Shown here: one piece after another, positions 1,823-57,579 of the stretch
How positions within the stretch are numbered: the stretch's first letter is position 1
Layout of the letters: every line of letters starts with the position of its first letter
Assembly (NCBI RefSeq): GCF_036711975.1
Contig: NC_091967.1
Location: 16,058,001 to 16,122,000 of the forward strand
Source: Onthophagus taurus
Taxonomy: Eukaryota; Arthropoda; Insecta; Coleoptera; Scarabaeidae
Length of the DNA stretch: 64,000 nucleotides
Direction: 5' to 3'
Notes under the pieces: model-generated
What the model saw: only the letters and a program-made list of their open reading frames with translations
Databases searched by the model: none
Told to the model about the DNA's origin: nothing
Position numbers and translations under genes: made by a program

Positions 1823-4800
1823 TTAGGAACAATGTGTGTTGTACACTTCAATTATTGTTAAACAGATTTTCTCTGCAAAGTTAGGATCACGAATTATTAT
1901 TGTTCTACCGTAATCTGCACCACCATATAGAGCCTTTTTCTTCTTTTGATCTGCCGACATCACCAAAACACCTTTTGGTACTACCTTTGGTGGCATACTG
2001 ATTTCATCCCATGTATAAGACCAATTTGTCTAAAAATTACATCCAGATTATCAGCAGTTAAAAGATATCTTTTGCTGCATTAACAATATTGAACTTACTT
2101 GCCAAGTTCCAAACAAATCGTTACGGTAACTATACAATAATCTTTGATTGGTAAGCATTAATATTTCTTTTTTACCAACAATGGAAAAGTGGTGAAGATA
2201 TACATCCGTTAATGCAAATTTTCCCTTTTCTAATTCAATAAAAATCTTGTATCCTATCGCTTCTAATTCGTTATAAGGTCTGATTAAACCGTCAAAATAA
2301 ATGTAACGACTCGGTCGTATTCGATTAACTTCTTGAGCTCTTAAGTCGGTTACTCTATTATAAACGATGTTAATAAAAGAAAACTAAAAAAAAGTGTGTA
2401 TTACTGTTTAACTGTATTCAAAGAACCACTTGCAAAATCGATAAACCCAGATGTTGGCCGAGCAAGCAAACCCACTGCTCCTTTTCCTAGCCCTCTAAAG
2501 AATCCACTAATTCCTTGTTCTCTAGCACCGGATATCGGTTTTCTGACAATACCAGTTACACCATGATATAACCCCTAAACAATTAAAGAGTGAATTATAT
2601 CTGCATAAAAATCGATGAAATAAACTCAAACCATGAATAGTCCTTTTCCAGATCTTGCAAATCCTTCAGAGACAGTTGCTTTTCTAGCGAGAGTAGATCT
2701 TCGCTTACGTTGGAATTCTTTGTCAAATGTTAACACAGCAACTCCTTTACCCATAGCACCGGTAATTCGAGATACAGCACCAGCTGCCCCGCCGACTGTA
2801 TAACCAACAAGACTTCGCACCCCGAGGGCGAGACCTTCAACAAATTCCCCAGGACCTTGAATAGCTCCCTATAAATCAATACATACTTTACATAATTAGC
2901 ATAAACATTAAAATTCTTTTACTTGGAATGGTTCATAAAATAAATCTTCAACACCTTTGGTAATTCCAAGCACTAAACCATAAGGATTTCCAAGAACATC
3001 TAATCCTAATACAAATGCATAAAGCTGTTTTACAGCCTGTCCAATGTAATGATAAGCAGCTTCGGTAAATAATTGTTTTTGAGTCAAAAATATACATTCT
3101 CTTTCAAAATAAGCAATTCTAAAATTAAAAAATAAGTAATAATAAAAATGAGAAATCTCGAAGTATATCATTACTTAAACATAACGTCTTGCATATCAGT
3201 CAAAGTAACACCAAGAGATTGTAATAAAACAGTAACAACATTTGGTGCCATATCAAGTCCGCTACTACCCAATGAGAAGCTCACGTGGATTTTCAATGGT
3301 GAAAAATGTAATAAATCGTAAAAACTTTTTTGTTCTTGTAGAGTTTGTTGGGATACATGTTGGTCTAAAGGTTTATTTAATAAGTCGGCGTCACGTAAAA
3401 AACAAGCTTTCTAAAACGTTTTAATATAATTAACTTATTTCATCAAATTTTTATTATCAAACCTGTTTTTCTAAAGTATCTTTAGATGTTTGAAACACTT
3501 CTACGAGAGCCATAACAAACCCAAGTTCCAAATTAATGTGAAACTCTTGTATAAGCAATTTAAAATATTTAAATTGTTTTATCTGGCTATGTTTGACCAA
3601 CATTTCTACTATACTTAATTCAGCGAATGGTTTGTGTACTAAAATTTTAAGTAAATATGAAAGTAATTTTATACAAACATTTAATAACTAAAATATTACT
3701 ATCTGCTCCAGCAACACTTTTAGGTAATGACACAGGAGCTAACACAACCGGAAATATACAATCATAAGACTGATTATCAATCTGAACCTTATTAATTTTA
3801 GCGTGAAGTTGTAACATATAGGGATTTGTTGTTATTTGAATCCACAGTCCATTCATAAATGTTCGTCGAATTTTTCTCATATGTGGTTTTAACATGATAA
3901 GAGTTTCAAAGTTCACTTCAGTTTTTGAATCGATGACCACCTTTCCATGTATCGGCTCAATGCTTCTCATACACATATATTGTTTATAAGATGACTCTAT
4001 TGCGGCGCTTTCTTTAGATCTCATATGTTTATAATGATACGAACCATGTTTGCAAGTTTCCCAAATAACCCCACTACCAGCGATAGCAACGTACATTATT
4101 TCTTTTTTTAACTGATTGTTTACTATGGAAAGGCCAAGTCCGAAAATTGAAATCGTTACTTCTTCATCGATGTTTGCAAAAATTTGCGAACACCGTGCGT
4201 TTCTAGCTACCTTTGGATTACAGGTGAATAAAAGAGTACGTTGTAATCCATCGAGAAAAGATGACCAATATACATGGTTATTTTCAGCTATTTCATAATC
4301 ACCATATCCATCTTTTCTTAAATCGTCTTCGATTTCACTTTTATAGCCAGCTTCCCAACATATAACCCGTGCTTTTGACGGATTTGACCATGAATAAAGC
4401 ATTTGATGGCCAGGATCTAATTTACTGGTTTTAAACATAACTGTCATGAATTTATAAGAAATGTTTAATTTTAACGTACAGTAATTGAACAGTATCTTTT
4501 TCCCAAATATTTAATGTATTCCTCGTGTTATTGATAATAAGAGCCATTGCCATTCCTGGTTCATATTTAGCAAATGTAATATAAACAGCACCTTCAGTAA
4601 TTTGTACATCAACGTGAATTCCACCGTACTATAAAAAATCAATAACTAGTAATAATAATTATCAGAAATCTAAACCTATGCGAAGTTAGCCCCCAATTTT
4701 TCTAGCCCCCAATTAGATAGGATTTTACATGTATAGTATTTTAATTATAACAAGAGAATCAGTCAACCGATTTCGATAAACAATGTCTCATTCGAAAGCG

Positions 4801-7800: not shown

Positions 7801-10800
7801 AGATCTTGATCAAGGGGTACATCGTCTACGAGTTATCAGCACTTAAAAAAGGTCATTTTTGTGTTATTTTTGTCTACCTTCACATTATGTTGGCGTTTTA
7901 GCGAAATTCGAAAGAGATTTCGAATCGGGCATTTCCACTTTCGTATTGGTCAAAGATTACGCTTTCGAATGAGACATTGTTTATCGAAATCGGTTGACTG
8001 GTTCTCTTGTTATAATCAAAATACTATACATGTAAAATCTTATCTAATTGGGGGCTAACTTGGCATAGTTGAAATCTAAACAATTTTATACCATATTAGC
8101 AAGTTTTAGTACGGTGTTGTGACTATCAGAGAAATAAAATGGTGGTGATATTTCACTTGTGCCTACTACTCGCATTCGTAACAATTTATCATCAAAATCA
8201 CCAACAGGCCATAAAGCACCACAACTGTTGGGTTGTACGCTTGTCCATGCATCTCCTGGTCGATCGTGCTCTTGGCACTCAAGTGGAAATGGAGATTTAT
8301 TAATAAGAATGTAATAAGGTGTAAACGTGACTTGCTTAGTTAAACCGTTATATGTAAGTACGATGTTAACACCAAACTAAGAAATATAAATGTGTAATTA
8401 ATACTCGGTGCGATTTAATTATTTGTATTTACCTGATAAAATTTGTTATCATATTTGCAAGTTATTACACCTGAAGATCCCGCAACGTCTATTGAGAATT
8501 TATCTGACCATTCTCCACCATACTCAATCCTTATCGCAGTTTTACTTGTACCAAAAAATCTCTTTGCGTTAAGTGAAAATAGTATTGGACCTTTGAAATT
8601 AGCTGGGTGGTGAAGAACGTTAAAGGTTTCATCGGAACACTAAAAATATAAGAATATACAAAAAATAGAAAATATATTGCGGAATAATAAGAAAATTCTT
8701 TTAAATTATGCTTTAAGAAAGTTTTAGTAGAAGGGTTAATAAATGTGTGGTAATAATAAGTGGGTGGGGAAATATTTTAACATTTATTATAAATTTTATA
8801 CTTGTTGATATAGTTTAATCATTTTTTATAAGTAAACAATATTTAAAACTATTTGAATACAAAAATTATTTAAATTTTGTCTACAAAAGATGAATTTTGA
8901 TAACCAAGAAATTGATATAATTGTGACATTTTTAAGAAAATCGTAAAACACTTTAATGAAAACATAAACTACCATTATATACACATATTTTGTTTGACAA
9001 TGTTGTTTGCTATACGGTATTCCTTTTTTCTTTGTATATCTAATAAGATCTTACTGCTTCATGAATTAGTTCATAGACTTAGCGAAACGAACACTCCATA
9101 TTTACAAGTAACTTGAGATCTTGCCTAAATTTTCAACATTTTTCTGCCAACCCACATACAATAAAATCTTCAACTCATTTCTTTCCTCTTCTGCTATTCT
9201 GTCGTTTTGAAAGTTAATCAAGTCTTGGTTGGTAAATTAATCTTCTTCGTTTGCCGCGCTGCACGCTCATCTTGCGTTGGGTTTGACATCGTATATCGAC
9301 GCTGCCAAGCCAAAACTACATAAACGACATCTACTTGATTTTCCCCCTTGAACTTATCTTCTTTAGTTATAAATGTTTTTTGCAGCAAATAAACCTGTAT
9401 CATCAATGTTAAAAGACCTGGCCAAGACTGCCAACAATTTTGCCACACTTTCAGTGTCTGCAGCAATTGAATGTTGTATAAATTTAACCTCTTCTTAAAG
9501 TTTTCAAATGATCGATGGCTTGCAACAATTGTTATATCTTCCATTGATTTTCCTTTCTTAACTTTCAATCATTTCATAAACTCCAAGTTTTATTTGAATG
9601 ACTCTCAGACTTACTGGAATATGCCGACTTGTCTTACTTACGTGGCTTTAATAATAATATGTAATAATTTTGTCTCTCTTTCAAATTCCCGTTATATTAA
9701 TAGCACCATTCTTTATCTTATCAAGAATTTTGCAGTAGTTTTCAAAATGCTATTAATTGCAGTTTTCCAAAAATCCAATCTTCGCCTTCTTGTTCAACCC
9801 GGTCCAAAAACTTAATAATTTTCAAATTTTTTCAACATTTCTTAAAAATGTTGTTAAAAACCTTGAAAACTTTTCACCATTTTTCACCAGAGTATAAATA
9901 TTTCCTCAAAATTAAATATTAAAACACTAACTTACTTTATAGGCAATATTCAGCTCCGATTTATTTAACATCCAAAACGGACAATAAAGTGTCATTAGCA
10001 ACGGACCTTTGTCTTCCACGCTATGAACACCCAAATCTATCGAGACGTTTAATGTACTATCATAACAATCAAACGTCCACACCGAAAATTGAGGTGGATT
10101 TGCTGGAATATCTTGGATACAACTCCACTCTTTATCTAAATAATTAGGAATCTAAAAAATTATGAGCGTCAGATTAGATATCATTTTTTTTAAGTTATAA
10201 AAAAATTCTTACTCTAACTACTATGTATGAAACACCTGGAAATCCATTCGTAATAGGTAAAGTACAACCCGGTTCAACTAAAAATTCATCATCAATATTT
10301 TGCACTGTTATAATAATTTTATATGGAAGATAATTTCGGAATAATACTGCAGGGTGGACGTGTATGTTACATAAAACACTATTCATAGTACGTTTTAGTG
10401 TATTTTCGTTGTAAATTTGTTCAATATGACTACTTGTCTAAAGTAACAAATAATACTAATGACAATTTCTAACAGCGTATTTTTTCTTACCTTGATTACA
10501 AATGGTTCTGAATGCCCCAAAAGCGTTGTTGGTGGACATTGTAATAATTGACACTGATTTACTTTTAAATATAAATATTTCCAAACAAACGGTTTGGTGG
10601 TTACAGAATATTTTTGAACAGCGAAAAATAACTCACACGTAGGCGTATAAACAGCATTAACAGGAAAATAAAATGTTTCTTCCGGTTCTATAGATCCAAC
10701 AAATTCTTTTTCCTGTTCTTTAGGAGTCATGCAATAAACGCTTATTGGTAGATGAAGATGATTATGAACCTATAAATATAAATTAAGAATACAAAGAAAA

Positions 10801-13800
10801 ATAATTATATGATAATTACCTTAACAATGCTGCTTAGAATTACTTTAAAAGTAGTTTCTTCGATTAACATTGAAGCTACAATACCCCAAGTATCTCTATT
10901 ATCCCGATAGTGTAAAGAAAAATATCTTGCATCGGGCTTAGCTAAACTTAACTCAATTTCACATTGCATTTCCATCACCTAGATGAAAAATAAAATTAAT
11001 ATATATGACCATTTATGTTTAAATTAATTTCTTGCCGTTATATATAAACGTTTATCAATAATATTCAAATTTCCAAGAATTTCATTTAAAGAATAATCAT
11101 CTCTATCGCTTTCTTTAAGTTGTAAATTTACTTCATCTCCATGCTCCATAATCACTTCATTTTCCCCATCTTGTTGATAAACAGAAAATTTACTTTTTTC
11201 AAAATCAATTCTCACCTTCAAGCCAGATTTATTAATAATTTTATATGGATGATTGTCAAGTTGAGGTGGTTTAAATGTTGTTAAATCGATCTTATCAGAA
11301 AATGCTTGACCTAAATTCGTTAACATTTCTAATGTAGTTTTTGATATGGTTACTTCTAAATTAGTATTTGATGAAACGATCACCGACATTTTCGGTTGCC
11401 CGGATAATACTATTTCTCCATCATGATGCGTAAATGGTAAACTTGAAGCATCTTCCCTATACTTAGAAACATCCACTTTTAATTCCCAAGGCTGATGTAT
11501 TGTGACATTCTCATGGAAAGTACCGTTAGGTTCGATTAAAGGTTCCCACGCAGCAAAGTTACTGTTGTAATAGGCTATTTGTAGCGTTATAGTTGCATCA
11601 ACAGCCATCTAAAAGAAAATATTATACTAAATTAAAAATTTGTGATAAAATTAGTTATTTACGTCTGCACTCCAATCTCGAATATTTCCTTCGAAACAAG
11701 ATTCTAACATCAATATAGGCATTGCGGCGTTTAACTCTCCTGTTTCTAGAGTTAAAACTAAACGAGCTACTCTAATTATGCACATTTCATATTTCTTTCC
11801 CTCAAAAGAAATTGGATATACTCCACCGCGAATGTATTCAATAGCATCTTCTGTAACACCTGTTAAAAGTAGTACGTAATTTAGGAACATATAAAAGTAT
11901 TGTTTGGAAATAAAAATATGGGGAAAAAATAAAATTAAATCGACAGTCAATTAATTTCTTATTACTTACTTGTGTTAAAGAACCAATATTGTTTTTCATT
12001 GTACGGTTTAGGAGACCATAAATCGAACATGTTTTCAAAGGTCTCGTCCTCCTTTTTTGAATCTTGTTCCATTACAAACCTTGCTGAGTACACCCTATTT
12101 AATAATTGAGTCGTGGTGGGTGAAATTTTTATTCGTATTTCAGTCAAGCAAATCTAATAAATAAATAATTAATATGATTTAAGGAATTTTGTAAATTTTA
12201 TTTGTAGCGTTTTCGAATCACTGCTCTAGATTGCCTAAGATTTCATCTATAAATGTTGCACTTTAAAGTAGTATGTCGAAATTGCATTAATTACCTCAAT
12301 ATGTAAACCTTTTCCTTCAGGTGTACTGCCTGCAATATTAAGTGTAAACGGAAATAGCACAAAATGTGTTGTTTTCTCTCTTTGAGTTGGGTTATAACAA
12401 CATGTATACATTTGGATATCTTTAACTAAGCCATTTATAACTTTCTTATTATCGCTCGTACACAGTTTGATTAGGAATTCAAACTTTCAAAAAATTCAAA
12501 ACAAATTATATAGTAATTTTAAAATTCTTATTGCACAACTAATAACAAATACTTACATTAATAATAATAGCGTTTGTGTTGATATCATCTAAATTTTCCA
12601 CTAGTACTATATCGGGTTTCTCTACCATGACATTAACGGTTGCATTTATAACTTGTTCAGTTTGAATCTGATTAGTTGATGTTGTAATTTTAATACGTGA
12701 TATACTTTGTTCCGGTACCACCGTATCGGTATTAGGATGGGGTGAAAATTCCTCGGGTAACAGCGTGGAAAGAAATGTTTGGAGTTGCAATACAAATTCC
12801 ATAGACAAGATCAGAGTAAATTCTGATACTTTTAGATCGACTGAAATTCAGTTTTTAGTAAATTAATTAAAATTAGTAAAACAATTCTAGTTACCATATA
12901 TATGATCGTTTTTCTTTTGAAATATAACATCTATCATACTTTTATAACTGGTATTAGCGGAATCTATATCAGCGTGATAAGTTTTTAAGAACATTTTATT
13001 TAACATATCTCCTTTTTCAATTCTTGTGTCTTTAAGTACGCAATCGACAAGTGCGACTGATGCATAAATGCTATCGTCACTCAGCATTCGACCTTTAATA
13101 CAAAGATCTTCAAAGGACAGTTGTGCAAGTTTATTACGCGCAGCGTTAAGTAACCGGGGATTCTAATTTTATTAAATAATTAATCAAATATAATAAAAAC
13201 AAATAAGTGAGACGTACCTTCAAAAAATCGTCAGTATAAAACAGTTTTATAGTAAAGTTATCCATAACAAGGCTAAATTTAACAACAATTGTAACTTCCT
13301 CTATATTATCAGCTGTTTGCGATTGTATCTGCTTAGATTTAACATTGACGAGCCCTCTTTCTTGAATTGGCTTTATTTCTGATGATGAAACTGATGAATG
13401 TTGGCTCACTTCACTCAAATTACCTAAAACTGTGGCAATAGCAAGACCATACTCGGTTTGTCCTAACACAATCTAAATCGTAAAATATTAAAAAGATCAA
13501 AAACATTTATCTAATAGCTTAAAACTTCACTTCAATTCCTTTAAGATATCCTTTGAACTGAATGTTAGGTATAGATTTATACCAAGATCCCGAAAGATTT
13601 CTCTTAAATTTCAAGACAAAGTTAAACGGTTTCAAAATAGTCATACTATGACGTATTTCTAATTTCTTATTAGTTTGAATCACGGATACTTGGACATTGG
13701 ACAATTTCAATTCTGTTTCATCCACAACAACACTACTTCCAGTATTCTCATTTCTTATATTGAAATCCAAAAATTCATTTTTTATGGTTAAATGACCCAA

Positions 13801-18952: not shown

Positions 18953-19773
18953 GATTTATTTTAACCGAATACGGTTTTATTTTATGCCAAACTAAAAATA
19001 ATACTTCAAAACCTGAACATTCTTATTATCATTGTATGACGGATCGCTAATATTCATAATACAGGTGGTGTTCTCCTGACTGACATACTTCAAATGTGTC
19101 TAAAACTTTAAGGCAATAATAAAAAGTATAGAAGAGGAGATATAATAAGGATTTCATAATATTCCGTAACTATAACTTTCTTTATGTTGATATTAGATGC
19201 TAAGGCCGAATTTTAGAGGGAGTTTCTAAAAAAGTTGAGAGTAATATGTTGGGTTTACCACATACAAAACCACCAACTTCGTTGAGTTGGGTTGGGTAGA
19301 GAAAAGAGAGTTATGGAAAATGTATTTAGCAAGATTTAAGCTGTTTCGATTTGAAAAAAACAATTTTGCTACAAACCCAAAAATGTGGTGTCATTATAAT
19401 AATCCTTCATAATAATTTAATGAAAACCAAGACTTCAAAAAATATATATACTTGTGTTTAATCAGTGCGAAGCGTATAAATCTTCGAAATATTCCAAGAA
19501 TGTACCTTTGACTACGCAAGTGAAACAACAAAAGTTTCGCCACAACATGAATAACATGAAATAACATTTGTTGATGTGGACCCACCTTTAACCTAGTTAA
19601 CATAAGTAAAACGAATGTTTGGGATAATAAAATTTCTGACATACCTAGAAACCTATATTAAACTAAATTATTTTGATATTAAACATTTATTAAACAAAGT
19701 AACAAGTTTAAAAAACTAAAGTGTTTACAAATATAAAAACGTTTAGAAATGTGATACACACTTACATCATTTT
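18953..19773 (-). promoter_or_regulatory. Gene C upstream region, with gene B 3' end
   Basis: The whole gap between the gene B stop and gene C start. The part next to gene C resembles the region upstream of gene B: on the plus strand both contain 'ctaaaaata...ttcaaaac.tgaac.ttctta' and then 'ctgactgacat', which on the minus strand gives TCAGTC, an insect initiator-like motif, at 19078-19083, about 130 bases before the ATG. A 13-base string GTATGACGGATCG at 19034-19046 also occurs upstream of gene A (55953-55965). Each copy therefore seems to have kept its own promoter. The middle holds nothing recognisable. The gene B poly(A) signal is at 19686-19691. Confidence 0.5.
19686..19691 (-). promoter_or_regulatory. 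Poly(A) signal AATAAA of Vps13 gene B
   Basis: AATAAA on the minus strand about 83 bases past the stop, in the block 'gatattaaacatttattaaa' shared with the gene A 3' end. Confidence 0.6.
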
Positions 19774-35106: not shown

Positions 35107-35624
35107 AATATATTAAACTTTTTCTTTCGTAATAAACTAAAAAAATAGTTCAAAACTTGAACTTTCTTATTTATCGCTGTCTGTCACACAATCGCTGATA
35201 TTTATAATCCAGGAAGTATTCTGCTGACTGACATCTTTCAAATACAAAAGAGGATAAAGACAGATTCGCTTTAAACTTATTTCAGATAAAACTATATTTG
35301 TACGCTATAACGTTTGTTGCGCTAATCCTTAAATAGTATTTTTGAGGTAAAAAAAAATTAACAATGATGTAAAAACAAAATATTTTTATTTGGCCTTCAT
35401 AAAATCTTTCAAATATAGAAGAACAAACAAATATAAAGTTATTTCAGCTTATATAGATAAACAATTAATAAAATATTAAGTCCCAGTAGTAGACCATTAG
35501 GATATTAAACATTTATTAAAATAAAGCAACAGATGTTGAAAAGCGTAGTTAAGTTTCATCGCTTTAAGGTGCAACATCAGAAATGAAAGTGTTAGACAAT
35601 CTGATATATGTGTTAAAAACATTT
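35107..35624 (-). promoter_or_regulatory. Gene B upstream region, with gene A 3' end
   Basis: The 518-base gap between genes A and B. Next to gene B lie the blocks shared with the gene C upstream region, including TCAGTC (minus strand, 35226-35231), initiator-like and about 125 bases before the ATG. No TATA box sits at a suitable distance upstream of it. The gene A poly(A) signal lies at 35512-35517. Confidence 0.5.
35512..35517 (-). promoter_or_regulatory. Poly(A) signal AATAAA of Vps13 gene A
   Basis: AATAAA about 108 bases past the stop, within 'gatattaaacatttattaaa', nearly identical to the block after gene B. Confidence 0.6.
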
Positions 35625-41600: not shown

Positions 41601-44600
41601 AAAAACTGGTAACAGCAAAGATAATAATTCAAAAAGATGATCAAAAATTTATTAGATTAAATTTCTTGCTCTACTCGCCGCTTCTTGACCTTCTATTTTC
41701 TTTTTTATTGGAGCGTAACATCCAACAAACCTGTCAACTACATCTCACATGGGAAGCTTGAAGAAATTCTCAAATCCTCCTGCATTAATGAAGGCGTCAA
41801 ACAATTGTACTGAATACAGGCTGCAGAAAGTAGTATAGAGAACACAACATCTGATGAACGTGTTAATGCCTTTATAAAACAAAGTCTCAAACCCACAAGT
41901 ATAATCTGATATGCCTTGTTGCACAATAAAGCAAGTTGATAATCCGAATTGTTTTGAAATATCATTTTTATCAACATTTCGTATATTCGCATTAAAAATA
42001 GTGTAAATATAAATAAAAAAAATTATAAAACACTCACCCTATAGCCAATATTAAGTTCAGATTTGTTTAACATCCAGAATGGACAATAAAGTGTCATTAA
42101 CAGCGGACCTCCATCTTCCAGCGTGTGAACACCCAAATCTAAAGAGACTTTTTGTGTACTATCAAAACTATCAAATGTCCATACAGAAAACTGAGGTGGA
42201 CTTGCTAGAATGTCTCTAATACAAGTCCATTCTTTATCTAAGTAATTAGGAATCTAAAAATTGTGAATGTCAAAATCAATTTATGTTTCTAAATTTGTAT
42301 TTGTGAGTTAACTTCTTACTCTAAGCACTAAATATGTAGCACCGGGGATTCCATTTGTAACAGGTAAAGTGTCACCGGGTTCAATTAAAAATTCTTCATC
42401 AACATTTTGTACAGTTAAATAAATATTGTATGGAAGACAATTTCTGAATAATACTGCAGGATGAATATGTACGTTACATAAAATACTATTCATGGTACGT
42501 TTTGTTGTGTTTTCATTGTAAATTTGCTCAATACTGCTTATTGCCTGGAAAAATAAAAGCAATGAACAAAATCGCAAATTTCGACGCACAATTTTTTATC
42601 TCACTTTGATTACAAACGGTTCTGAATGACCTAAAATTTTCATTGGTGAACATTGTAGCATTTGAGTTTGATTTATCATCAAATGTAGATCTTTCCAAAC
42701 AAACGGTTGGCTAGATACAGAATATTTTTGAACAGAAAAAAATAATTCGCTTGTGGGCGTATAAACGGCATTAACAGGAACATGAAATATTTCTTCTGGT
42801 TCTATAGAACCGATACATTCTACTTCATTTCCTTTTGGAGTCATGTAGTAAACATCAAGAGGTAGATGAAGATGATTATAAATCTATAAATTTAAATTAG
42901 TAATAAATCATCAAAAGAAAAACGCGTTACCTTCACGATGCTACTGAGGATAACTTTATAAGTACTTTCTTCAAATAAAGTTGATTTTACTATACCCCAT
43001 GAATCTTTATTATCCCGATAGTTTAATGAAAAATATCTTGCATCAGCTCTAGTCAAATTTAACTCGATTTCACATTCCATTTGAATCACCTAAATAAAAA
43101 AAATGAACAGATTTTCTTTGTAATTATTTGTTCCAAATTATATGTTATTCTTTTAAAAGAAAGTCGTTTTAAATGAACACCTATATAATCTGGATTTAAA
43201 ATATTTACTGTTATGTAAAGAAATTTATTATGAACATTTAAATTTAGATTTCCAAATATTTCATTTAAACTATAATCTGTTCTATCAATTTCTTTAAGTT
43301 GTAAAGCCACTTCAGCTCCATTCTCCAAAATAACATCTTTTGCCGCTACTTGTTGGTAAACATGAAAGTTACTCTTTTCACAATCAATTTTCACTGCTAA
43401 ACCAGATCTATTGATAATTTTGTATGGAGGAGTATCACGTTGTGGTGGTTTTAATATAGTTAAATTAACCGCATTAGAAAAGGCTTGACTCATATTCATT
43501 AACACCTCCAATGTGGTCTTTGATATGGTTACATCTAAATTAGATTTTGATGAAAATATAATAGACATCTTCGGTTGACCAACTATTAGAGGTTCTTCTG
43601 GATCGGAATCTGATTGTGGACTAGTAACTTCACCTCCGCCATTGTTCACACAAACGTCAAGTTTTAGTTCCCAAGGGTTATAGACCACGTTGTTGTCTTG
43701 GGAATAAGCAGTAGGTTCAATTAAAGGTTCCCAAATAGCAAAGAAGCTGTTGTAATAGGCCATTTGTAGGGTCATAGTTGAATCAATCAACATCTAAAAT
43801 AAAATTTATTTAGTTTATTAAGTAAAATTTGAAACGAGCCCGAATATTTACGTCAGCACTCCAATCTTGGATATGCCCTTCAAAACTAGATTCTAATGTT
43901 AGTACAGGAAGTGTACCCTTGCCCTCTCCAATTTCAACGGTTATAACAATACGAGGTAATCTAACTATACAGATTTCAAAATGTTTTCTCTCACCGACTG
44001 AAACCTGGTTTTGTGCACTACCGATGTATTCAATGGCATCTTCTGCGACGTCTATAAGAAAATGTACACAATTAAAAATAACACGTAAGTCCGTTGTTAT
44101 AATTAATCTTACCTGTATTAAAAAACCAATAATGTGTTTCGTTGTATGGCACAGGATCCCATAAACTAAGCAAGTTAATAAAGGTATCAACCTCCATTTG
44201 AACATTTTGTTCAATTAAAAACATGGATGTATACGCCCGATTTAATAATTCGATTGTGGCTGGTGAAATTTTTAAACATATTTCAGTCAAACAAACCTAT
44301 AAATAAATTATTAAGTGATTTTATAATTTTTAGTTAAATTTTAGATTATTTACCTCAATATGTAAACCTTTTCCTTCGGGTGTAGAACCGGCAATATTAA
44401 CTGTAAATGGAAACAACACAAGATGTTTTGTTTCCTCTCTTTCTGCCGGATTATAACAACATGTATACATTTGAATATCTTTGGCTAATCCGGATATAAT
44501 TTGCCGATTTTCGCTCAAACGAAGTTTGAAAAGCAATTGAAACTTTAAAAATAAATTAACTGTTATTAAATGTCTTAATTAAAAAAAAGAAAACTTACAT

Positions 44601-47600
44601 TGAAAATAAGGGCATTAGTGTTAATATTATTTAGATGTTCCACCAAAACTATATCTGGTTTGTCCAATTTGATATTAATCGTTGTATTTTGGACATGCTT
44701 TAATTCACTCTGACTCGATCTTTCAATTTGACTGGATGATTTTTCAACTTGATTAGATGGTTTTTCAATTTGAACGGTTGATTTTGTAACTGGATAAGTA
44801 CTTTTATTAGATGACGCTTTTTGTGTTGATGAAGCTTTTGTTGTAGGTGGAGCGCCACCAGCATTTTGATCACTAAACGCCGACATAACGAAACTTTGTA
44901 GTTTTGAGATAAATTCCATAGATAATATCAGATTGAATCCTGATATTTTTAAATCCACTAAAATATAAGCAGTAATTAGTTTAATCAACAACGATGTATA
45001 AATTATTAGTTTGGGTTGATATAAAATATACAGTGATTACTACAATTAGAAATCAGTCAAAAACACATTCCAAATTGATGAATTTGCAAAAATGCACTAT
45101 TTGCTAAGTAGGGAGTCAATCCAAAACCGAAAAACATGGTAAGTAGTCTGTAAGATAAAAAAGTATGGAGACTACTGGTCTAAAGGGTCACAGTTGATGT
45201 AGAAAATGTAGGTTAGTTTTAATTTGGATTTAGGCAGAAAGAAAATATTAAGATAATCTTTATAATCTGATCTTCATACAGGGTCTATCTGAATGACTGC
45301 AATAAACTTCAAGGGGTGATTCTTTAGTGAATTTTTTTTCTTTTCTTTTTTTATATATCCATGTTTGATTTTTTTTTAATGTTAAATATGTAAAGTATGG
45401 GTTGTGCCAGTAAATATTATTATTATAAAGTTCTGTTGACACATAAGAGATGGGTTTTTAGAAGCTCTATGCTCAACTGTTCACTAATTGTTCAAGTTTC
45501 AACAGGTTCCAAGCAACAAACAATATTGCCATAAAAAAGTATCGTGACACCACATGATCAAATTTACCATTTTGATGTTTTAGTCACTAGGAAGACAGAT
45601 GGAAGCATAGACCTGGGAGTGTATCAGACGAAGACACATACCAAGAGATATTTACAGACTTCGTCCTATCACCGACGAGTTGTTTCGACGAGCGGAATGG
45701 ATATGCGACGAAAATATTTTAAAAAAAGAAGGATTTCTAGAAGAAGTACACCAGAAGAACGACGACACTCTAAGAGATAACCAACGAGCCAGCAAACAAC
45801 GCAAACAGGAGGAAGACACGGTAAGTATTACACCAGCCGGTGTCGTCTGCCTTACTTATGTTTCAGGTATGACGGATTGCAAGGTATCTCTGATAGCTAA
45901 AGACAAACTAATCCCATTAAAAGTAACGGAAGTCTATCGGCTGCATGATAGTCACTCTAAAGCGCCTTTCACACGAATTCACACGCCCTTGTCAATATCT
46001 GTGTATTGACAATATTATTGAACCTATGAGTAGAAAGATTGACAGATTGCCAATATTGAAAATATTGATGGGATAGTTTGACGAAAACGAAAATATTTGA
46101 TATATTGACAATAAATATTGACAGTCTAAAGGAGAGATTAACAATCCTAAAATATACAATTGACAAACCTATAATACCTACACAAGCTTTTTGACGGTAT
46201 GACATCTTTGACAGCCAGCGCAAAACTATAAATATTGATAATGTGAGACAATTACAGTTTGCAATGTTTATTGACAAATTGACAATACTTTATTGACAAT
46301 ATATATTGATCGTGTGAAGGGCGCTTTATTCGTACCAATGACATCTGTAACGTCAAACACTTTTCCGAAAAGCGCACGACAACCTAAAAGTTTCTACTTC
46401 TAGATCCTCTAGAACTGTTAGTTCTAGTGATAGTGTTAGTTCTAGTTACTTCTAAAAGTATGGTACCAAAAAAAAAGGATTATAAATAAATGTTTTTAAC
46501 TTAACTAACAAAAACTAGATAAAATAATAATTTAGTAAGCAATTTTACTTACAATAAGTTTGCTCTTTCCTCTGATGGAAAACAACATCAATCATACTTT
46601 TATAACCAGAAGATTCAGAATCGACATCGGTATTATAAGCTCTTGAAAACATCTTGTTTAACATGTCTTCTTTCCCAATCCTGGTATCTTCTATAACACA
46701 ATCAATAAGTACCACTGATGTATGAATGGCTCCATCTGTTAACATTCGTCCTTTTATACATAAATCCTCCAAAGACAACATCGCCAAGTTGGTACGAACA
46801 GCTTTAAACGACCGAGTTTCCTAAAACATTGAATTAATTTCAATCAATTGTAGAGGAAACATTTAATAACCAATCTTTACCATTAGAGTATCATCAGTAG
46901 CGAGTAACCTTAAACTAAATTTTTTCATAATAAGACTAAATTTGAGAAACAATGTAGGTTCTTCTTCAGTTGCAGGTTTTTCCGATTGTGTTTGTCCACT
47001 TTCAGCCTCGACTGATAATACATAATTAGTTGACTTAATTTCAGATATTGGTTGTAGAGGAGTTTTTGTTTCTACAGCAGGCTCTTGAACAACTTCTCCT
47101 AAATTTCCAAGAACTATACTCATAATAGTACTGTAATCAGCTTGTCCTAACACAACCTAATCAAAAATGTTAAAAAGTTTTTGAAAATGTTGATTGCGAA
47201 CGTTTTAATATTCACCTCAATCGTATCAATATATCCACTAACTTGAATATCCGGTATAGCTTTATACCAAGAACTCGACAAATTTCTCTTAAGTGTCAAA
47301 CCAAGATTTACAGGTTCTAAAATCATTATACTGTTGATAACTACCAATTGCTTATTACACTCAACCCTAGATAGTTGTATGTCGGACAATTTTAATTCCA
47401 TTTCATCCACAATAGCATTGCTTCCAGTATTTTCATTTTTTACATTTATCTCCAAAAAGGTATTTTGAATCGTTAAATTACCCAAATCACAAATCAGACC
47501 GTCCAAACTGTTTGAATTTTCGGGAATAAGTACTTGGGGTGCTTTTAAAGTAACCCTAATCGACATTTGGACCGCATTTTCATAAATATTGGTTACATTC

Positions 47601-50600
47601 TGTTTTGCTTTATCGGCAGCTGCTTTAGAAGCCTCAATTATCGCTTCTCTGGCTTGCGTAAACTTATTAATGAAACTCAATACTTTACTTACATAGAGAT
47701 TAAGAAATACAATTCGAATGTGACCAACAGAAACAGACACAGCCATATCCTCACGTCGAGATGTATCAATTTCTTTGTTATAAAGAAATAAATTGAAATT
47801 TACTACTTCATCTGATAAAACTTTCAAAATCTGTAATATAATTAAATCATAACATAAATTCTGGGGAAGTTTTGGAAAATGTTTACCTGGATGTATTTAG
47901 TTTGTGATGATAAATCCTTTACTTCAATATTTTTCATAACCACACTAACTTGTGTATATGGCTCTTTAAGAACAACTTGGGCCATAACATGATTTACTGT
48001 TAAAGATGTAAGATCACCAAAATCAGATGTTAAACTGACTTGAAATTCTTGTAGTAATGCTTCAACTTTAAATAATATATTTGGACTGTCTGATCCATAT
48101 AACACCGCTTTTGATTTCTCTGCAAGTTATAAAAATTAATCAAATTTTTTATAACCAAATTTTGAGTGAACTTACTCTGCGCAATCTGTACTTGTGATGT
48201 TTGAGAAATTACTTCACTTATTGATCTCTTAACCTGCCTCATAGAAGATAAACTGGAATTCAACCTCATAGGTTTTGTTGGTTTTTGTAATTCTTCAAGT
48301 TGAATTTGTAAATCATTTACATATTGTACTAAACTATGTAAAATTTCCTGGTGTAATCTTAATTGTATAACTTCAATATCGACAGAAAGTAGAGCTTCAG
48401 TACTTTTATAAGTCGTTGCAAAGTCGGGCGATTTTTTATCAACCTTTAATAAAAAATGAGTTCAAATGAATTTCTTGATACAATAAAACCTCGATTAATA
48501 CAGGGGAGGGTGTGTATGTTATAGTCAAACGTCTGTTATATGAAAAATTTTAATTTGCACTTTAAACTGTTTGAATGAATAATTTTAATGCACACAAATT
48601 CGAACTGCTATCCATACCATTGCGTCGAGTCTACCTAGCTTTATATTTATACCAATAACAGCAGAATCTATGAGGAGTGCTACATCCTGGGATCAGGTGC
48701 ACAACTTGATGGCCTGTTCGTGACGTCACGCATAGATAAGTAATAGTTTGGGACTTAAGGCTCATAATATAAAATAAAGAACTACAGTCTTTGATTTATA
48801 CATCATAGAGACAACTCTGGAAATACCCCAAGTTTATCTCTCAACATGGAATAGAACAACTTGAGAAATAACCCGAGTTGGATTCTATCTGTGAGCGCTA
48901 ATATTTATATTTAACTATACTGATGTATTAATAGCATAACTATCGAAGTTTTAGTGTATTCAAAAATTTTTATAAGTACCTTTAAAAATGTAACCTTTAA
49001 TAGGTTGTCATCAAAAGACATAGCTGGGGTAGCTATTAATGGAACTTGTTCATTATGATGGTATTTATCAAAAATCAAATTTTGTAATTTTAAGCTCACA
49101 GTTTGAGCGAATGTTTGGACTAAAACTGAGGCCGACAATGATTCTAAAGATATCCTCGCTACATCTTCAACTGGGCTGTGAGAATATTCTTGATGTTTGA
49201 TATTAACGCAAAGTTCTAAGAAATCCAATTAAACATTATTTTAGAATTAACATATTTTTACTAAACTCAAAATACTATACCGCTTATTGTAAAAAGAACT
49301 TCCAAATTAGTATATTGTTGACGACCAACAACGTCTCGTAAAACTTCTTTAGTGACTTCTTCACTGGTAGTTTGCACTTCCTTGTCATTAAAATCAAAGA
49401 ATTCAAGCGTTTGTGAACTGGGTCGTCTAAGTCGTAAGTCTTGCTGTAATTAATTATAATATACAAAATTAATTACAATAAAAAAATTCATTTGAAAACA
49501 AATTATTTAAGACTTACCTTGGAAGCTGGAGAAGTTTCTTCCGTTTTGGGAAGAGGAATACTATTAATCAGCCCAAGTGTTAAAACAATTTGAAAATCTG
49601 TGATATTTAATGACAAAGATGGTAAAACACCGCGTATTTTACATTTTGGTAATCTTGGATCAAAATCAATTAAACAAATATGAAATTCTAAGCTCAAACT
49701 TAGTGGATAAAGAATGTGGTAGTTGGTTTTTGTACATTCTTTCAATATATGTAACCAGTTTTCACCGCCAGGCACTACCATGACTTGAAGATCGGAAAAT
49801 TCCAATAAAAATTTATCATAACTCTCCTCAATAACAGCGCTTATTAATTCTTTTTGGGTTAATTTCTGTTGCTTCTCTTTTATGGTAGATTTATCTGTTT
49901 GAACTGAAAAGAATTTCGCATGACCCAAATTAATTGCTATAATATTTTCAGTTTCAGTGTAAATTCCACCATATGGTATAATCACATATGGAGCGTATAA
50001 ATCAATTGCCAATTCGATTTGGCTGTGTTGATCAATAACGTATTGAAGTTTAGCTGTTGATTGGTATTTTACGTTATCAAAAGTTGATGTTGCTACATCT
50101 GACAATCTAATTTAAAGAAACCATGTAAAATTTTAAAGTTTAAGTTAAAACTAGTCAACTTACTGTTGAAGTGTGGAAGATCGGGGAATTGTGAAAAGAT
50201 CCACTATACCATTAATTGTCATTGCATCATAAATTATTTTGATTGGTTTTACGGTTGCGTATAATCTATTGGTACACTTAGAATGTAGCGGATTTACTTC
50301 AAAAATCACGTCGCATAAAGAACCGTCTTCGGTGGGATTGCATGACATTAACTTTGGTTTATAACCGGATTGTTTTATTCCAGTTACTGATATTTCGTTT
50401 ATATTAGCATGGACACTAAAATAATTATTTTTAATATTTTTTATTTTTTTTTTATAAGATGAATAATTTAAAGAATCACTTTTATTACTAAATATTTGAC
50501 CAATCACTGGCATGTTTGATTGTAATCATACTCTATAATTTAATGAGTTATAATTATGGTTGTTTCATTCATCAAATACATCACAATTAGCACTTAATTA

Positions 50601-53600
50601 AACAAACCATGGTTATAACTTAAAAACTTTAATCGACAGGTTTACCGTTTTTGTGTTACCAATATTTTCCGCCTCAATCATTCTTGACCGCCGTTATTAA
50701 GATTATAGCGAATGATCTTGCATTTTTATGGTAATACTCACGCTACTCCATTTCCTGAAGTACGCATCTCCAATTTCAACTTGGCGGTAAAGAATTGTGT
50801 CAACAAAACGTTGTGCTTATCATTGTAGACTCTTACAACTAACTTTCTTAAGAGAAACGAAAGGACAACATCGATGTAATGCGTCGGTTGTACAGCTGCA
50901 GCTGCGTTTTCGTTATAATTAATCGCTTTGTAGAATCGTTGCTTTTCTTCGGGGGTCATCACTTCTTGAAATTGAGCAGCTATAAATTAAAGATGTTAGT
51001 TAGGTAACGTGTGAGTTCTTTGGAGATAATTAATTTTAAGCTTCTTTTTATTTACCAATATTTTTAGACGCATCTGGTTTTTCTTCTTGATTACCAAACC
51101 AACCAAACCAACCTCCTGCAGCTTGTGGTTTATCTCGCTCCAATTTTTCCAATTCCAAGTTAATTTTTTGACGAACAAGTACGATATTCATCAGATCCAA
51201 GGCTTTTTCTAATTTCTCAATTTTATTTTCATCTTCAGGAGCTAACTGAATAATCAAAAAAAAATAAGGTATTCTTTATACATCCAAACGTCGTATTTAC
51301 CTTTTTTGATTGCATTTTAAGTTTATACATTTTTCCATATTGTTTACACATATGCAAATGTTTCTTAATATGATCCCAATTAAAATTGTTATGTTTCCGA
51401 CGCACCTCAGATTCTAAAATACAATTATAAGCAAAGTGCCACCATTCTTTATAATGACCTTTATAAGGAACATGTGGTCTAAATTTTCTGAACGGTTCAC
51501 CACGTGACATTAATGCCATACTGTCAGCTAACCCAATTATATCTCTGTATTGTTGCTTACTCATTCCTTTAGAAATATATAAAACATATGCGATTTATAA
51601 TCATTTAATGATCGAATCGTTTTTAGTATTACCAACTGCAAGCTGTTCCATTTCCCAAGTTGCCATAACTTTTGGAATTACAAAACGATTTGCATCTAAA
51701 TCTGGTCGTGGATTTAACTTTAATCGTGCAGCTGAATGGATTGGACCTAGAACTGAACAAAAAAAATTTAATTATGTTGAACAAACTAACAAACTACAAT
51801 AATACTTACTATATGTATACTGTTCAGGTATATTATCTTTCGTGGCAATATCATTTTGTAACTGTTTAATTAACGCCTCTGGTTTTAGATCTCTATAAAG
51901 TTCAGAATTGCAGTTCCAGTAGACTGATAATGCTTGAACCTCAAGCATCTTAAATAAATTACAATTTCAGTTAAAATATGGTACATAATATATTTATATT
52001 CAGTGGTTAACCCTTTAATGCATGACAATATTATGTGAACTAAGGGAAGTTTAAAACATAAATATCTATAATAAAACTTAGGGGCGGTTCAACATCCGCA
52101 AGATAAACTCGGAATAACTATTTCTCGTTATAACTTGAAATGTTAATTCTCGTCAGTTTAAAGATAAAAAAAAATAGCTAAAATAGTTGCATAAACAATA
52201 GAACTAGACTCTTTTTCCAAGAGGTAAAGAATATGAAAAACGACTTTAGACCCAGATGTGGAACTGCAATAAAGATTAACGAGGGTAACTTTATTACAGG
52301 TGAAGCTGAAGTGATAAAGACCTGGAGAATATATTTTGACGGGATATTGAATGTGCAGGCAGATAAAGTCAACTAAAATATAACAAAGCTCCAGGAAACG
52401 GTACTATATCGGCAGAATGTCTAAAAAATGGAGGAGAAACTTTGGCGTTTGCTTTCTATCAGCTGATCAGCTAAATATAGAAAGAAAAGCGAATACCAAC
52501 GCCCTGGAAAGAAAGTGTTATAGTGTCCACACATAAAAAGGGCGATAAAATGGTCTATATCCCTTGGAAGATATAGGATTTTCCCTAATATTAGAAAGTA
52601 GAACCAGTAGAACAAATATTCGCTATTGGAGAAATGCTGGGAATACAACAAAACATTGCACCAACTATTTGTAAATTTTAAACAGGCATACAATAGCATC
52701 ATGAGAGTGAAGCTGTGAAATGCCATGGCAGAACCAGGCATACCAATAAAATTAATTAAACTCACAAAAGTGTGTGTAGAGGGACCTACAAATGCAGTAA
52801 TATTTGAAGAAAAACTAACACAAAAACGCTTCTCTTTAAAAATCAGCGTCCTCAAGTTATACTGGCTTATCACTGATGATATAAATATAGTGGAAAATAT
52901 AACTATCGATGTCAAGGCAGCGTTCATTAAACTAGAAGTTGCTGAAGGTAAGTTGACCTACGAATTAACGAAGATAAAACAAAATAAATGATTGCAACAA
53001 GAACTGATCGACGAGACAGAATAGGACAGAATGTGACAATGGACCATTACAATTTTGAAAGAGTTCAGTTTAAATATTAGAAAGCTACAATCACCTTTGA
53101 AAAGAACATAAGACACGAGATTGATATATAAGGTAATGAAATAGAAAAATGTATCCAGCCGACAAAACAAAATGGGAATCGGCCAAAAATCGCGGAAACC
53201 AGTCAAGGACAATAACACAGATCACTATAGAATGTGGACCAATAGAAAACTGGAACAACTATATAACAAGCCAGATATAGTAAAAGTAATAATCAGAAAG
53301 ATATAAATGGACCGACCAACAACAACAAGAGAAGCGTGTTCTTGAGATAACGTGTCCCCAGAGGGAAGGCGAATGCTGGGAGGACCGAGGATGCGGGCCA
53401 AATTACAATGGATCTACGGGCCCTAAATATCAAGCGATAAAAGGAACTAATGTTGTACGGCAGCAAATTCCAAATTAGCGGATTTAACTCATTATTATTT
53501 TGTAATTCTGCGCCCAAGCGTTCGAGCAGGTCATCATGAGACATGACAAAAACTGTTAAATATTACCTATTCTACAAGGTATAGCGGAATAAGGGTATGG

Positions 53601-55827
53601 ATATCTCGACAATGGTAAACTTACAGGTTCAAAGAATCGAGCAAACCGTGGAGAGTCAATAAACGCGATACAGAACGCCGCGATAGCACACGTGCGCTGT
53701 AACACTGTACAGAATGGGTGTTAAGGAAGAAGATAATTTATTCTTAATGGAAACATCATCATTAACACTTTGATATCTAATATCAGCATTGCTAATAATT
53801 TAAGCATAAAATCTATGAAAATCACAAAGACTTAAAAGATTTTAAGTCTTTGTGTTTCAATCTGTTTCATGAAAAACGAAAATGAATAATTTTTTCTTTA
53901 AATAATAAATAAACAACATAACATGGAAGTCTTACTTTAATTATCAATATTTTTTAAAGCCAACAGAGCTCTGTAATCTGAGCATAAACAACAGTTGATG
54001 GAACATTTTATTATATAATGAAGTATTTTTATATAAATAAATATCCATTATTATTTTGCAATAATATGATTGACCTGTGTGTATATTAGGTGAGGTTTTT
54101 AAGTACATATAATATATAAGTTGGTCAAAAAATGATGATAACACAGTGTTGAAATATAATTGCGAATAGAGGGGTGGTAGATATACACTATACAATTCTC
54201 AAATAAGTTGTGCAGCAATAAATGATTGTAACAAAGTAGTAGTTAGTATCGCTGCTGTGCTTCCCTAGCTTATTTGTTTTAAACCAAACGGTGTCACAAA
54301 AAATCTGTTAAGAGAACGTAAAATGTTCTTTCAACCAAGACCAAAAATATTCAAATTGGTTGAACAGTCCAGGAGATATTAAAATGTAAATATATCAAAA
54401 CGCATTGGCCTCCACCACTCTTATTACGTTATTATTATGTTATAACTCATCATCTAACTTTCCAAGATAGGGAGAATTTTTGTTTCTTTATGGCAGTTAC
54501 GCCCCTTTGCGGTCGAATTACGAACTATAAATAATTTCCAAGTATTTCTCTTGCCCACTTTGCTGATAAGGATTTTTTCCCTAAACCTCTACTCCTTACC
54601 CTTTACCATACCGCATTTTTTTAAATCCAACTGGATTAACTATTGATCCTAAAACTGATGAGAAGTGAGTTGTTCTAAAATTTTAGCAGTTTCAGTATGG
54701 TTACAGTTAAATTCAAAAAGTATTGACATAAATTTATTAAATCACTCCCATTGAGTGTTAGAAACCTTTTAATATTAATCTTTAATTAAGCTTTTTAAGC
54801 ATTTTATACAATGCTTGTAATATTTATTATATCTATGATTGTAATCAATAATGTTGTGTTAAATAATTTGATTCTATTTTATATAAACTTTTGTGGGTTA
54901 AAGGGTTAAATAAAAAAACAAACCTTAAAAATTCTAGAGAGCTTTTCATTTGGTGAAACAGTCGCCATAAATTTCTCATCAGTGGATTGAACATATATTT
55001 GACTCAAAGTAAGTCCAGTTGCAAAAGGAGATGTAGGATTTGTAATTTTATCTTCATACCTAACATGTATGTTTTTAATCCTTACTTGTAAATTTTTGAT
55101 AATTTGTGTGACGAGTCTCTCAACAAAACCAGCTTTTTCTACCTTATCTTTATTAGCTTCTAAAGCTCGTTGTTTAGCAAGATCCATTTTTTTCAAGTGA
55201 TTTTGTTTTTCTCTTTGCAATTTCGTGCTTTCTTTCTCTTCATTGTATTCAACCTGAGAATTTGGTTCTACCACTATGTATAAACCTTCAACTGTAACTT
55301 CCGTAGGTAAAGTGTATATCTTGTGCCATGGTACTTTTATTGTTAATTTTCCTTAAACCAAAGAAAAATTTTAAAAAAGTTACTAAATTAATACTTTATT
55401 TTAATCTGAATCATTATGAAAAAGGTTGTGTTGAATAAAACAATACACAAAAACTTCATAATGACAGAGGTTGTTAAAGGGCATCAAAAAATTTGAATTA
55501 TTTATCTTATTCATTAAAAAAAATAGGTATGAACCTTAGCAATAATTTCTAAATCTAAAAATTAATTTTATACCTAGTTGACCATAAACCGTCTGAATTG
55601 GTAGATCTAAATCTTTTAAAGCAGATTGCTTTAATATCAAATTTTTCAAGACAACATCGCCTAAAAATTACAAAAAGACAATAATTACAACGTCGTATTT
55701 ATAGGTTAAAATTGAGGTTAGGTTTACCTCCCCAAACGCCAAGATTAAGCTGTTTGGTGTCTAAATTTTCGATGTAATCCCCCAATACCGAATTTAGGAC
55801 CTGATTTAGAAGTGATTCGAAAACCAT
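35625..55827 (-). CDS. Vps13: Vps13, conserved copy (VPS13A/C type lipid-transfer protein), complete
   Basis: Predicted ~3237 aa, normal for the family. VPS13 proteins form long hydrophobic grooves that move phospholipids between membranes at contact sites. Hand-spliced exons: 55728-55827, 55574-55660, 54924-55351, 51810-51948, 51633-51752, 51301-51566, 51056-51245, 50742-50979, 50164-50415, 49518-50106, 49281-49443, 48980-49215, 48176-48443, 47887-48119, 47216-47830, 46881-47156, 46553-46820, 44599-44957, 44354-44542, 44113-44296, 43852-44051, 43209-43793, 42931-43089, 42605-42883, 42320-42544, 42038-42253, 39778-39984, 39435-39719, 39233-39381, 38447-39174, 38217-38392, 37923-38158, 36758-36953, 36463-36702, 36204-36373, 35889-36144, 35625-35831. 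N-terminal chorein domain [20 protein letters not shown] with GVWGG and VPWHKIY; FFAT-like EFFDFND near residue 820; VAB adaptor-binding repeats about residues 1900-2500 ([40 protein letters not shown]); DH-like/ATG_C part residues 2804-3083; PH-like end. Domain limits are approximate. Confidence 0.95.
36954..37922. other. Gene A intron 32, nothing recognised
   Basis: A 969-base intron. The same intron is under 100 bases in genes B and C, so this copy has probably taken an insertion. Open frames at 37256-37459 (minus) and 37689-37886 (plus) show no family motif, and terminal repeats were not found. Confidence 0.4.
40260..40994. mobile_element. hAT-type element with 8 bp target-site duplication (gene A intron 26)
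   Basis: The element spans 40268-40986, flanked on both sides by GTTTATGC (40260-40267 and 40987-40994). Eight bases is the size made by hAT transposases. Terminal inverted repeats: TAGTGATGGAACGGATA at the left and its complement at the right. The minus strand keeps a broken piece of the transposase C-terminus: acidic [20 protein letters not shown], a frame change, then [12 protein letters not shown] and CCEWW, like the start of the hAT dimerisation domain (YL..P...R...D...WW). It cannot encode an active transposase. Confidence 0.8.
40995..42037. other. Remainder of gene A intron 26, nothing recognised
   Basis: About 1 kb of AT-rich intron past the hAT element. Open frames on the minus strand (41267-41476, 41738-41992) carry no motif I can place. 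Confidence 0.4.
44716..44780 (-). repeat. 21 bp coding repeat in Vps13 gene A exon 18
   Basis: Three 21-base units encode a seven-residue repeat: [14 protein letters not shown] and QIERSSQ. They sit in a serine/threonine-rich loop before the conserved [17 protein letters not shown]. Genes B and C have one QIE-like unit at this place, so the expansion is confined to gene A. Confidence 0.7.
45274..45325. repeat. Solo end of the 'tacagggtgtatctgaatgac' TIR family
   Basis: About 50 bases (from 'tacagggtctatctgaatga' to 'ggggtgattctttag') match the terminal inverted repeat of the element at 60591-60845. No second end was seen nearby, so this is a fragment inside gene A intron 17. Confidence 0.6.
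45544..45957 (+). mobile_element. Penelope-like element reverse transcriptase fragment
   Basis: Plus-strand coding remains in gene A intron 17. The frame reads [20 protein letters not shown], then [14 protein letters not shown], like the 'LDV.v.R..dG.l...VYRKPTHTdrYL...S.H' segment of Penelope-like reverse transcriptases. A frame change follows, then [20 protein letters not shown], and [17 protein letters not shown] like the 'PYv.G..d.i.r.l.k' segment. The element is truncated at both ends and inactive. Confidence 0.65.
45958..46328. mobile_element. MITE with TA target duplication, ~370 bp
   Basis: Terminal inverted repeats AAGCGCCTTTCACACG and AAGCGCCCTTCACACG (right end read on the other strand) flanked by TA on both sides. 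The interior is rich in repeats of 'attgacaatattgac' and has no coding capacity. TA targets suggest mobilisation by a Tc1/mariner-type transposase. It abuts or interrupts the Penelope fragment. Confidence 0.7.
48481..48956. mobile_element. pogo/Tc1-like MITE in gene A intron 12
   Basis: A 476-base insertion with ends CAATAAAACCTCGATTAATA and CACTAAAACTTCGATAGTTA (right end on the other strand), flanked by TA. Ends beginning CA.TAAAAC.TCGAT are usual for pogo-group elements. No transposase inside. Confidence 0.6.
49384..49404 (-). other. Vps13: FFAT-like VAP-binding motif in Vps13 gene A
   Basis: Encodes EFFDFND, about residues 817-823, against the FFAT consensus EFFDAxE. Human VPS13A and VPS13C carry a FFAT motif at a comparable distance from the N-terminus that binds VAP proteins on the endoplasmic reticulum. 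The motif lies in exon 11 after RRPSSQTL. The aligned place in gene B reads [12 protein letters not shown] and in gene [13 protein letters not shown], which lack the essential phenylalanine and aspartate. Confidence 0.75.
52180..53460 (+). mobile_element. RTE-like non-LTR retrotransposon fragment
   Basis: Plus-strand reverse transcriptase remains, antisense to gene A. In order: KKINEG-type leader around [20 protein letters not shown], then [20 protein letters not shown] (the 'nkApG.Dgi.aEllK.gGe' fingers motif), [20 protein letters not shown] with HKKGDK, and [20 protein letters not shown]. Several stops and frame changes separate these pieces, and the catalytic YADD box is not intact. The tail near 53380-53410 encodes [15 protein letters not shown], possibly the C-terminal 'GRPR.RW' region. 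Confidence 0.75.
53823..53854. repeat. Perfect 15 bp inverted repeat (hairpin)
   Basis: CACAAAGACTTAAAA and its exact complement separated by two bases, in gene A intron 3. It could be a terminator-like palindrome by chance, or the relic of a foldback element. Confidence 0.6.
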
Positions 55828-57574: not shown

Positions 57575-57579
57575 ACTAA

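Follow-up and report, generated by a model that had tools for sequence, protein, structure and literature searches.

In vertebrates, VPS13A and VPS13C lie at separate loci; they have related roles and links to human disease. In the beetle Onthophagus taurus, three Vps13 genes, probably of the VPS13A/C type, stand in tandem, which raises the question of whether each is still a working gene and whether the three do the same job. We analyzed a window of 64,000 nucleotides (C2:16058001-16122000 of the 290.8 Mb assembly), and positions below are those of the window unless a sequence name is given. The three genes are full length and arranged head to tail on the minus strand, and their order in transcription is C, B, A, as follows.

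35625..55827, minus strand: Vps13 copy C, 37 coding exons, 3237 aa (splice model); the 5'-most copy, conserved and founder-like
35107..35624, minus strand: intergenic gap of 518 nt between C and B, with its first AATAAA/ATTAAA at offset 107 past the C stop
19774..35106, minus strand: Vps13 copy B, 37 coding exons, 3195 aa, exon 10 ending at 30893 (splice model)
18953..19773, minus strand: intergenic gap of 821 nt between B and A, with its first AATAAA/ATTAAA at offset 82 past the B stop
1823..18952, minus strand: Vps13 copy A, 37 coding exons, 3199 aa; the 3'-most copy, with one GC-AG intron (intron 22)
11029..11035, minus strand: GC donor in intron 22 of copy A; the matching site is GT in B and C

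The outer bounds of the array are exact, with the stop of copy A at 1823 and the start of copy C at 55827. The start codon of copy C aligned to residue 1 of both VPS13A and VPS13C, and the final exon is homologous across the three copies. Downstream of the copy A stop, the first AATAAA/ATTAAA was found at offset 87. A 111-nt block stands upstream of A and of B and is 79% identical between the two gaps.

Gene models were built with a gene finder that used cross-copy splice scoring and were then curated by hand through three-frame inspection and comparison between copies. The automatic models were discarded because they split or over-joined the genes, and the hand-curated models were used instead. 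Intron phase is identical in A, B, and C at all 36 introns, and each copy has a single, terminal stop. GT-AG boundaries were found at 107 of 108 introns, the exception being intron 22 of copy A, and an in-phase AG acceptor for exon 19 is present in every copy. Most introns are short, with a median of 59 nt and 84 of the 108 at 100 nt or less, and the long ones are unlike between copies. A repeat search also found the three copies to be collinear throughout the interval, with 61 to 88% ungapped DNA identity to the reference copy in the 20 of 53 direct-repeat families listed (three copies each). These results bear out the first-pass annotation, which had described three complete Vps13 genes of about 3,200 aa separated by 0.5 to 0.8 kb, each with 37 coding exons, matching phases, and no internal stop.

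Copy A would terminate early if the GC-donor intron stayed unspliced. The C-terminal region of copy A downstream of this donor is constrained (omega, 0.27; omega of 1 rejected, P = 5e-5), which suggests that intron 22 is still spliced. Intron 28 of copy A (3,463 nt; window 4700-8060) is filled by a foldback-type repeat with nested inverted arms, 601 bases of which match at least 87 places in the genome (self included) at up to 96% identity. The same intron measures 52 and 53 nt in B and C, indicating that the repeat insertion is specific to A. Upstream of copy C lies a two-exon ITFG1-type gene (61160-63025, minus strand) with C2_ITFG1 and FG-GAP matches, and a DDE_3 transposase fragment (57239-57646, minus strand) is located between the two.

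We assigned the copies to a family from profile and structure-database matches. The Pfam model VPS13_N scored above its cutoff of 80 bits in the open frames around exon 3, the chorein exon, of each copy (83.2 bits in A, 88.2 in B, and 147.5 in C). VPS13_M exceeded its cutoff around exon 15 in A and B, and a genome profile match placed it in exon 15 of copy C as well. VPS13_VAB was above its cutoff in exon 28 of A and B, the two copies covered by that scan; the VAB region of copy C is alignable to VPS13C and VPS13A. Exons 30 and 34, scanned singly, reached no Pfam model. Four segments of copy C, which leave part of the mid-protein outside them, were searched against PDB sequences, and the two best matches were chains of VPS13C and VPS13A. 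We take chains 9yg4, 9yg5, and 9yqp to be human VPS13A/VPS13C, and 6cbc and 9yrm are presumably fungal Vps13. The last 650 residues of C align to residues 3080-3732 of VPS13C (E = 4e-162) and to a C-terminal VPS13A chain (E = 2e-155). By inference from the alignments, A and B would be 70 to 80% alike in this APT1/ATG2-C/PH end. The identity of copy C to human VPS13A and VPS13C is 36 and 35%, respectively, in residues 1-600 and 42 and 43% at the C terminus. By sequence, fungal Vps13 (6cbc, 9yrm) has the same N-terminal region. The PDB matches included no VPS13B or VPS13D chain against which the VPS13C/VPS13A hits could be compared, and the length of about 3.2 kaa fits the A type.

Elsewhere in the genome, distant VPS13 loci were detected at C2 18.90-18.92 Mb and C3 4.99-5.02 Mb, with 24 to 44% identity to C in tblastn pieces; these are probably the Vps13B and Vps13D genes. 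A further VPS13_N match at C2 0.215 Mb was barely above the cutoff (80.5 bits), and one on C7 was weak (32.7 bits). The locus counts are lower bounds, with 35 of 47 candidates scored. A genome-wide search with exon 30 of copy C found no fourth close copy, the hits being A, B, C, and a single site on C3 with 25% identity. On the same assembly, the exact 30-base TTAGG pattern gave two overlapping internal matches (C3:12202483-12202517), and the corresponding TCAGG pattern gave none in the genome, so either the telomeres are missing from the assembly or they are of a different type. The genome also yielded 132 Chitin_bind_4 matches, in keeping with an arthropod.

O. taurus is like Drosophila in having a Vps13 of VPS13A-like length and, besides it, further VPS13 loci that are more divergent; the two large ones among these are probably Vps13B and Vps13D. 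The two insects differ in that Drosophila has one A/C-type Vps13, as known from the literature rather than from a sequence alignment, whereas the O. taurus array has three in tandem. As given in part of a 2022 family analysis (PMC7613979), the fly has a single A/C-type Vps13 plus VPS13B and VPS13D homologs, in agreement with the comparison to fly and vertebrates drawn in the first-pass annotation.

Divergence between the copies is substantial. Protein identity is 69.9% between A and B, 64.9% between A and C, and 65.9% between B and C. By the NG86 method, dN/dS was 0.179/0.495 for A-B, 0.228/0.768 for A-C, and 0.219/0.742 for B-C; YN00 and maximum likelihood gave higher dS values (0.57 to 1.49) and lower ratios (0.14 to 0.31). 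The dN/dS, omega, and relative-rate runs used a copy B model of 3,189 aa, and the final model of B has six residues more through its exon-10 donor. A purpose-written, unrooted three-branch codon model, in which the C branch includes the A/B stem, was applied to the whole protein and gave an omega of 0.319 for A, 0.292 for B, and 0.189 for C plus stem. An omega of 1 was rejected on each branch (2dlnL of 87.3, 95.9, and 509.8 for A, B, and C, respectively; P ≤ 1e-20). Neutrality was also rejected per branch in all four regions of the protein, the weakest case being B in residues 1-600 (P = 0.043). The proposal that selection acts on all three copies thus withstood the dN/dS check, and with open frames and an omega below 1 on every branch, none of them looks like a pseudogene.

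Constraint is uneven along the protein. The one-ratio omega was 0.393 in residues 1-600, 0.315 in residues 601-1920, 0.141 in the VAB domain, and 0.145 at the C terminus. Branch omegas differed for the whole protein (P = 8e-7), the middle (P = 0.013), and the C-terminal region (P = 2e-6). The free-ratio model was no better than the one-ratio model in residues 1-600 (P = 0.30) or in VAB (P = 0.48), and the raised omega in residues 1-600 is found on all three branches, not on A and B alone. We additionally looked at runs of agreement between pairs of copies. The longest A-C run covers 10 polymorphic sites in codon columns 2865-2871 (exon 32) and was equaled in 0 of 2,000 shuffles; the longest A-B and B-C runs were not unusual (369 and 296 of 2,000 shuffles, respectively). 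This seven-codon A-C run in a conserved exon could be a small gene-conversion tract or a B-specific change.

A FastTree analysis (LG+gamma) was run on N-terminal, VAB, and C-terminal blocks with VPS13A and VPS13C from PDB sequences as outgroups, VPS13A entering without the VAB block. The topology was ((A,B),C,(hA,hC)), with a local support of 1.0 on both internal edges. The vertebrate VPS13A and VPS13C pair grouped together outside A, B, and C and therefore arose separately. Branch lengths were 0.185 for A, 0.165 for B, 0.189 for the A/B stem, and 0.086 for C, and the path from the common node to A or B is about 4-fold longer than that to C.

Tajima relative-rate tests located this excess. In residues 1-600 with VPS13A as the outgroup, 70 changes in A were counted versus 34 in C (P = 4e-4) and 69 in B versus 36 in C (P = 0.0013), and A and B were alike (35 versus 32; P = 0.71). 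With VPS13C as the outgroup, the corresponding counts were 70 versus 38 (P = 0.0021), 64 versus 38 (P = 0.01), and 37 versus 32 (P = 0.55). No significant difference was detected in VAB (P = 0.21 for A-C, 0.12 for B-C, and 0.65 for A-B). At the C terminus, the P values for A-C, B-C, and A-B were 0.14, 0.37, and 0.56 with VPS13C and 0.014, 0.18, and 0.32 with VPS13A, so that one of the four tests of C against A or B (A versus C with VPS13A as the outgroup) was significant. VPS13A and VPS13C agree with each other in 309 N-terminal columns, of which 155 are retained in C, 135 in B, and 132 in A; for 319 such C-terminal columns, the numbers are 190, 185, and 183, respectively. The relative rates and the retained columns together indicate that C is the conserved copy and that A and B show their excess change most clearly at the N terminus, where lipid enters.

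The copies also differ in a short tract on the side of the protein that faces the endoplasmic reticulum (ER). The core of an FFAT motif reads E-F/Y-F-D-A-x-E/D within an acidic tract, with A at the canonical position 5. The features concerned are as follows.

49384..49404, minus strand: copy C exon 11, residues 817-823 (EFFDFND), an FFAT-like tract that lines up with the VPS13C tract (phmmer)
30689..30836, minus strand: copy B exon 11, which has no FFAT-like tract
15280..15430, minus strand: copy A exon 11, which has no FFAT-like tract

In an unforced phmmer alignment, EFFDFND of copy C falls on EYFDAED of human VPS13C, which we take to be the FFAT of that protein, so that the two tracts have their position in common. 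The copy C tract has one deviation from the core, F at position 5, and may bind VAP weakly, judging by its residues. Exon 11 of A and B has well-defined splice bounds at matching places. The pattern [DE][FY]F[DE] occurs nowhere in the A or B protein, and EFFDFND is its sole match across the three proteins. At least one match arose by chance in 131 of 1,000 shuffles of C, 173 of A, and 179 of B; since such matches arise by chance, it is the homologous position and not the motif alone that makes the tract of C notable. A broader search for F[FY].[ACT] directly preceded by an acidic residue or S/T gave one additional match in C, at residue 506, and none in A or B. Neither the slower change of C nor the missing FFAT-like tract of A and B is described in the first-pass annotation.

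The identification of EYFDAED is consistent with passages of PMC6389287 and PMC7999203, which place an FFAT of human VPS13A and VPS13C in a loop near the N-terminal region and describe recruitment to the ER through VAP. For human VPS13A, a passage of PMC6389287 reports that the FFAT is required for ER/VAP binding. Yeast has a single Vps13 gene. According to a passage of PMC7999203, no predicted FFAT had been found in the corresponding region of the yeast protein, and A and B resemble that state. The yeast example means that loss of an FFAT is no proof of lost ER contact. The tract may also have been gained in C rather than lost from A and B.

At the opposite end, which engages adaptors, the copies agree. 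The six repeats of the VAB domain are placed in copy A as follows.

8433..11608, minus strand: copy A exons 22-27, VAB repeats 1-4
8092-8376, minus strand: copy A exon 28, VAB repeat 5
4480-4628, minus strand: copy A exon 29, VAB repeat 6

The asparagines of all six repeats are Asn in A, B, and C, in columns placed by our own choice of motif. In yeast, the asparagines of the first and last VAB repeats matter in adaptor recognition, as stated in a passage of PMC7999203. With these residues kept in every copy and a one-ratio omega of 0.14 in VAB, docking on an acceptor organelle would be expected of A, B, and C.

We consider it probable, though well short of certain, that the array is a lineage-specific tandem triplication that arose by two duplications and has led to divided duties, with C anchored to the ER via VAP and A and B docking through adaptors without VAP. 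A first duplication would have separated C from the ancestor of A and B, and a second would have separated A from B, with unequal exchange as the likely route. All three would encode bridge-like lipid-transfer proteins in which the chorein cap and the repeating-beta-groove rod move lipid out of the donor membrane, while adaptors dock the C-terminal VAB/ATG2-C/PH end to the acceptor organelle. Copy C would retain the ancestral VAP-dependent ER anchor. A and B would keep adaptor docking, reach the donor membrane independently of VAP or by the chorein end alone, and be maintained for divided or tissue-restricted duties.

The main rival is a division of dosage or expression with the same biochemistry. 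On this account, all copies serve one function at shared contact sites and are retained for their amount or by an expression split alone, and drift explains the FFAT and rate differences. The presence of the family's parts in every copy, the six shared VAB asparagines, and the constraint on A, B, and C are all as this account would have it, and the upstream block common to A and B could carry common control elements. However, the 30 to 35% amino acid divergence, the roughly 4-fold difference in node-to-tip length between C and A or B, and the absence of the FFAT-like tract from both A and B all exceed what retention for dosage predicts. We regard it as a serious candidate that is clearly less probable than divided duties. 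Somewhat more doubtful still, and offered tentatively, is the idea that A and B are Vps13 bridges that have given up VAP and, with the ER tether lost and adaptor docking kept, link other membrane pairs, in which case the array would be a series from ER-tethered to ER-independent proteins.

Early decay of A, B, or both, with frames open by chance or by lag while function fades, is improbable. The higher omega of A and B than of C and the one GC donor in A are what such decay might leave behind, but about 3,200 codons have stayed open in each copy while each terminal branch accumulated a dS near 0.25 (derived from the NG86 values), an omega of 1 was rejected for each, and copy A is constrained downstream of its GC donor. 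An assembly artefact from uncollapsed haplotypes or a misjoined repeat can be given practically no weight, and nothing was found in its favor. Alleles do not differ nearly as much as these copies, with 65 to 70% protein identity and an NG86 dS of 0.50 to 0.77 (about 0.5 to 1.5 by pair and method); their long introns are also unlike, and the window contains no N and lies inside a 30.8 Mb contig; the tandem duplication is real, as the first-pass annotation had supposed.

We found no report of such a Vps13 array among the titles and abstract openings listed in searches of the open-licence literature. As a gene-family expansion, the array is unusual yet understandable, and its new element is the apparent asymmetric loss at the ER end. 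That constrained copies differ at the ER-side motif and share the adaptor domain would make the two ends of the bridge separable for study. The survival of an intact array of so long a gene, with 15 to 20 kb and 37 exons per copy, bears on how large multiexon genes survive duplication.
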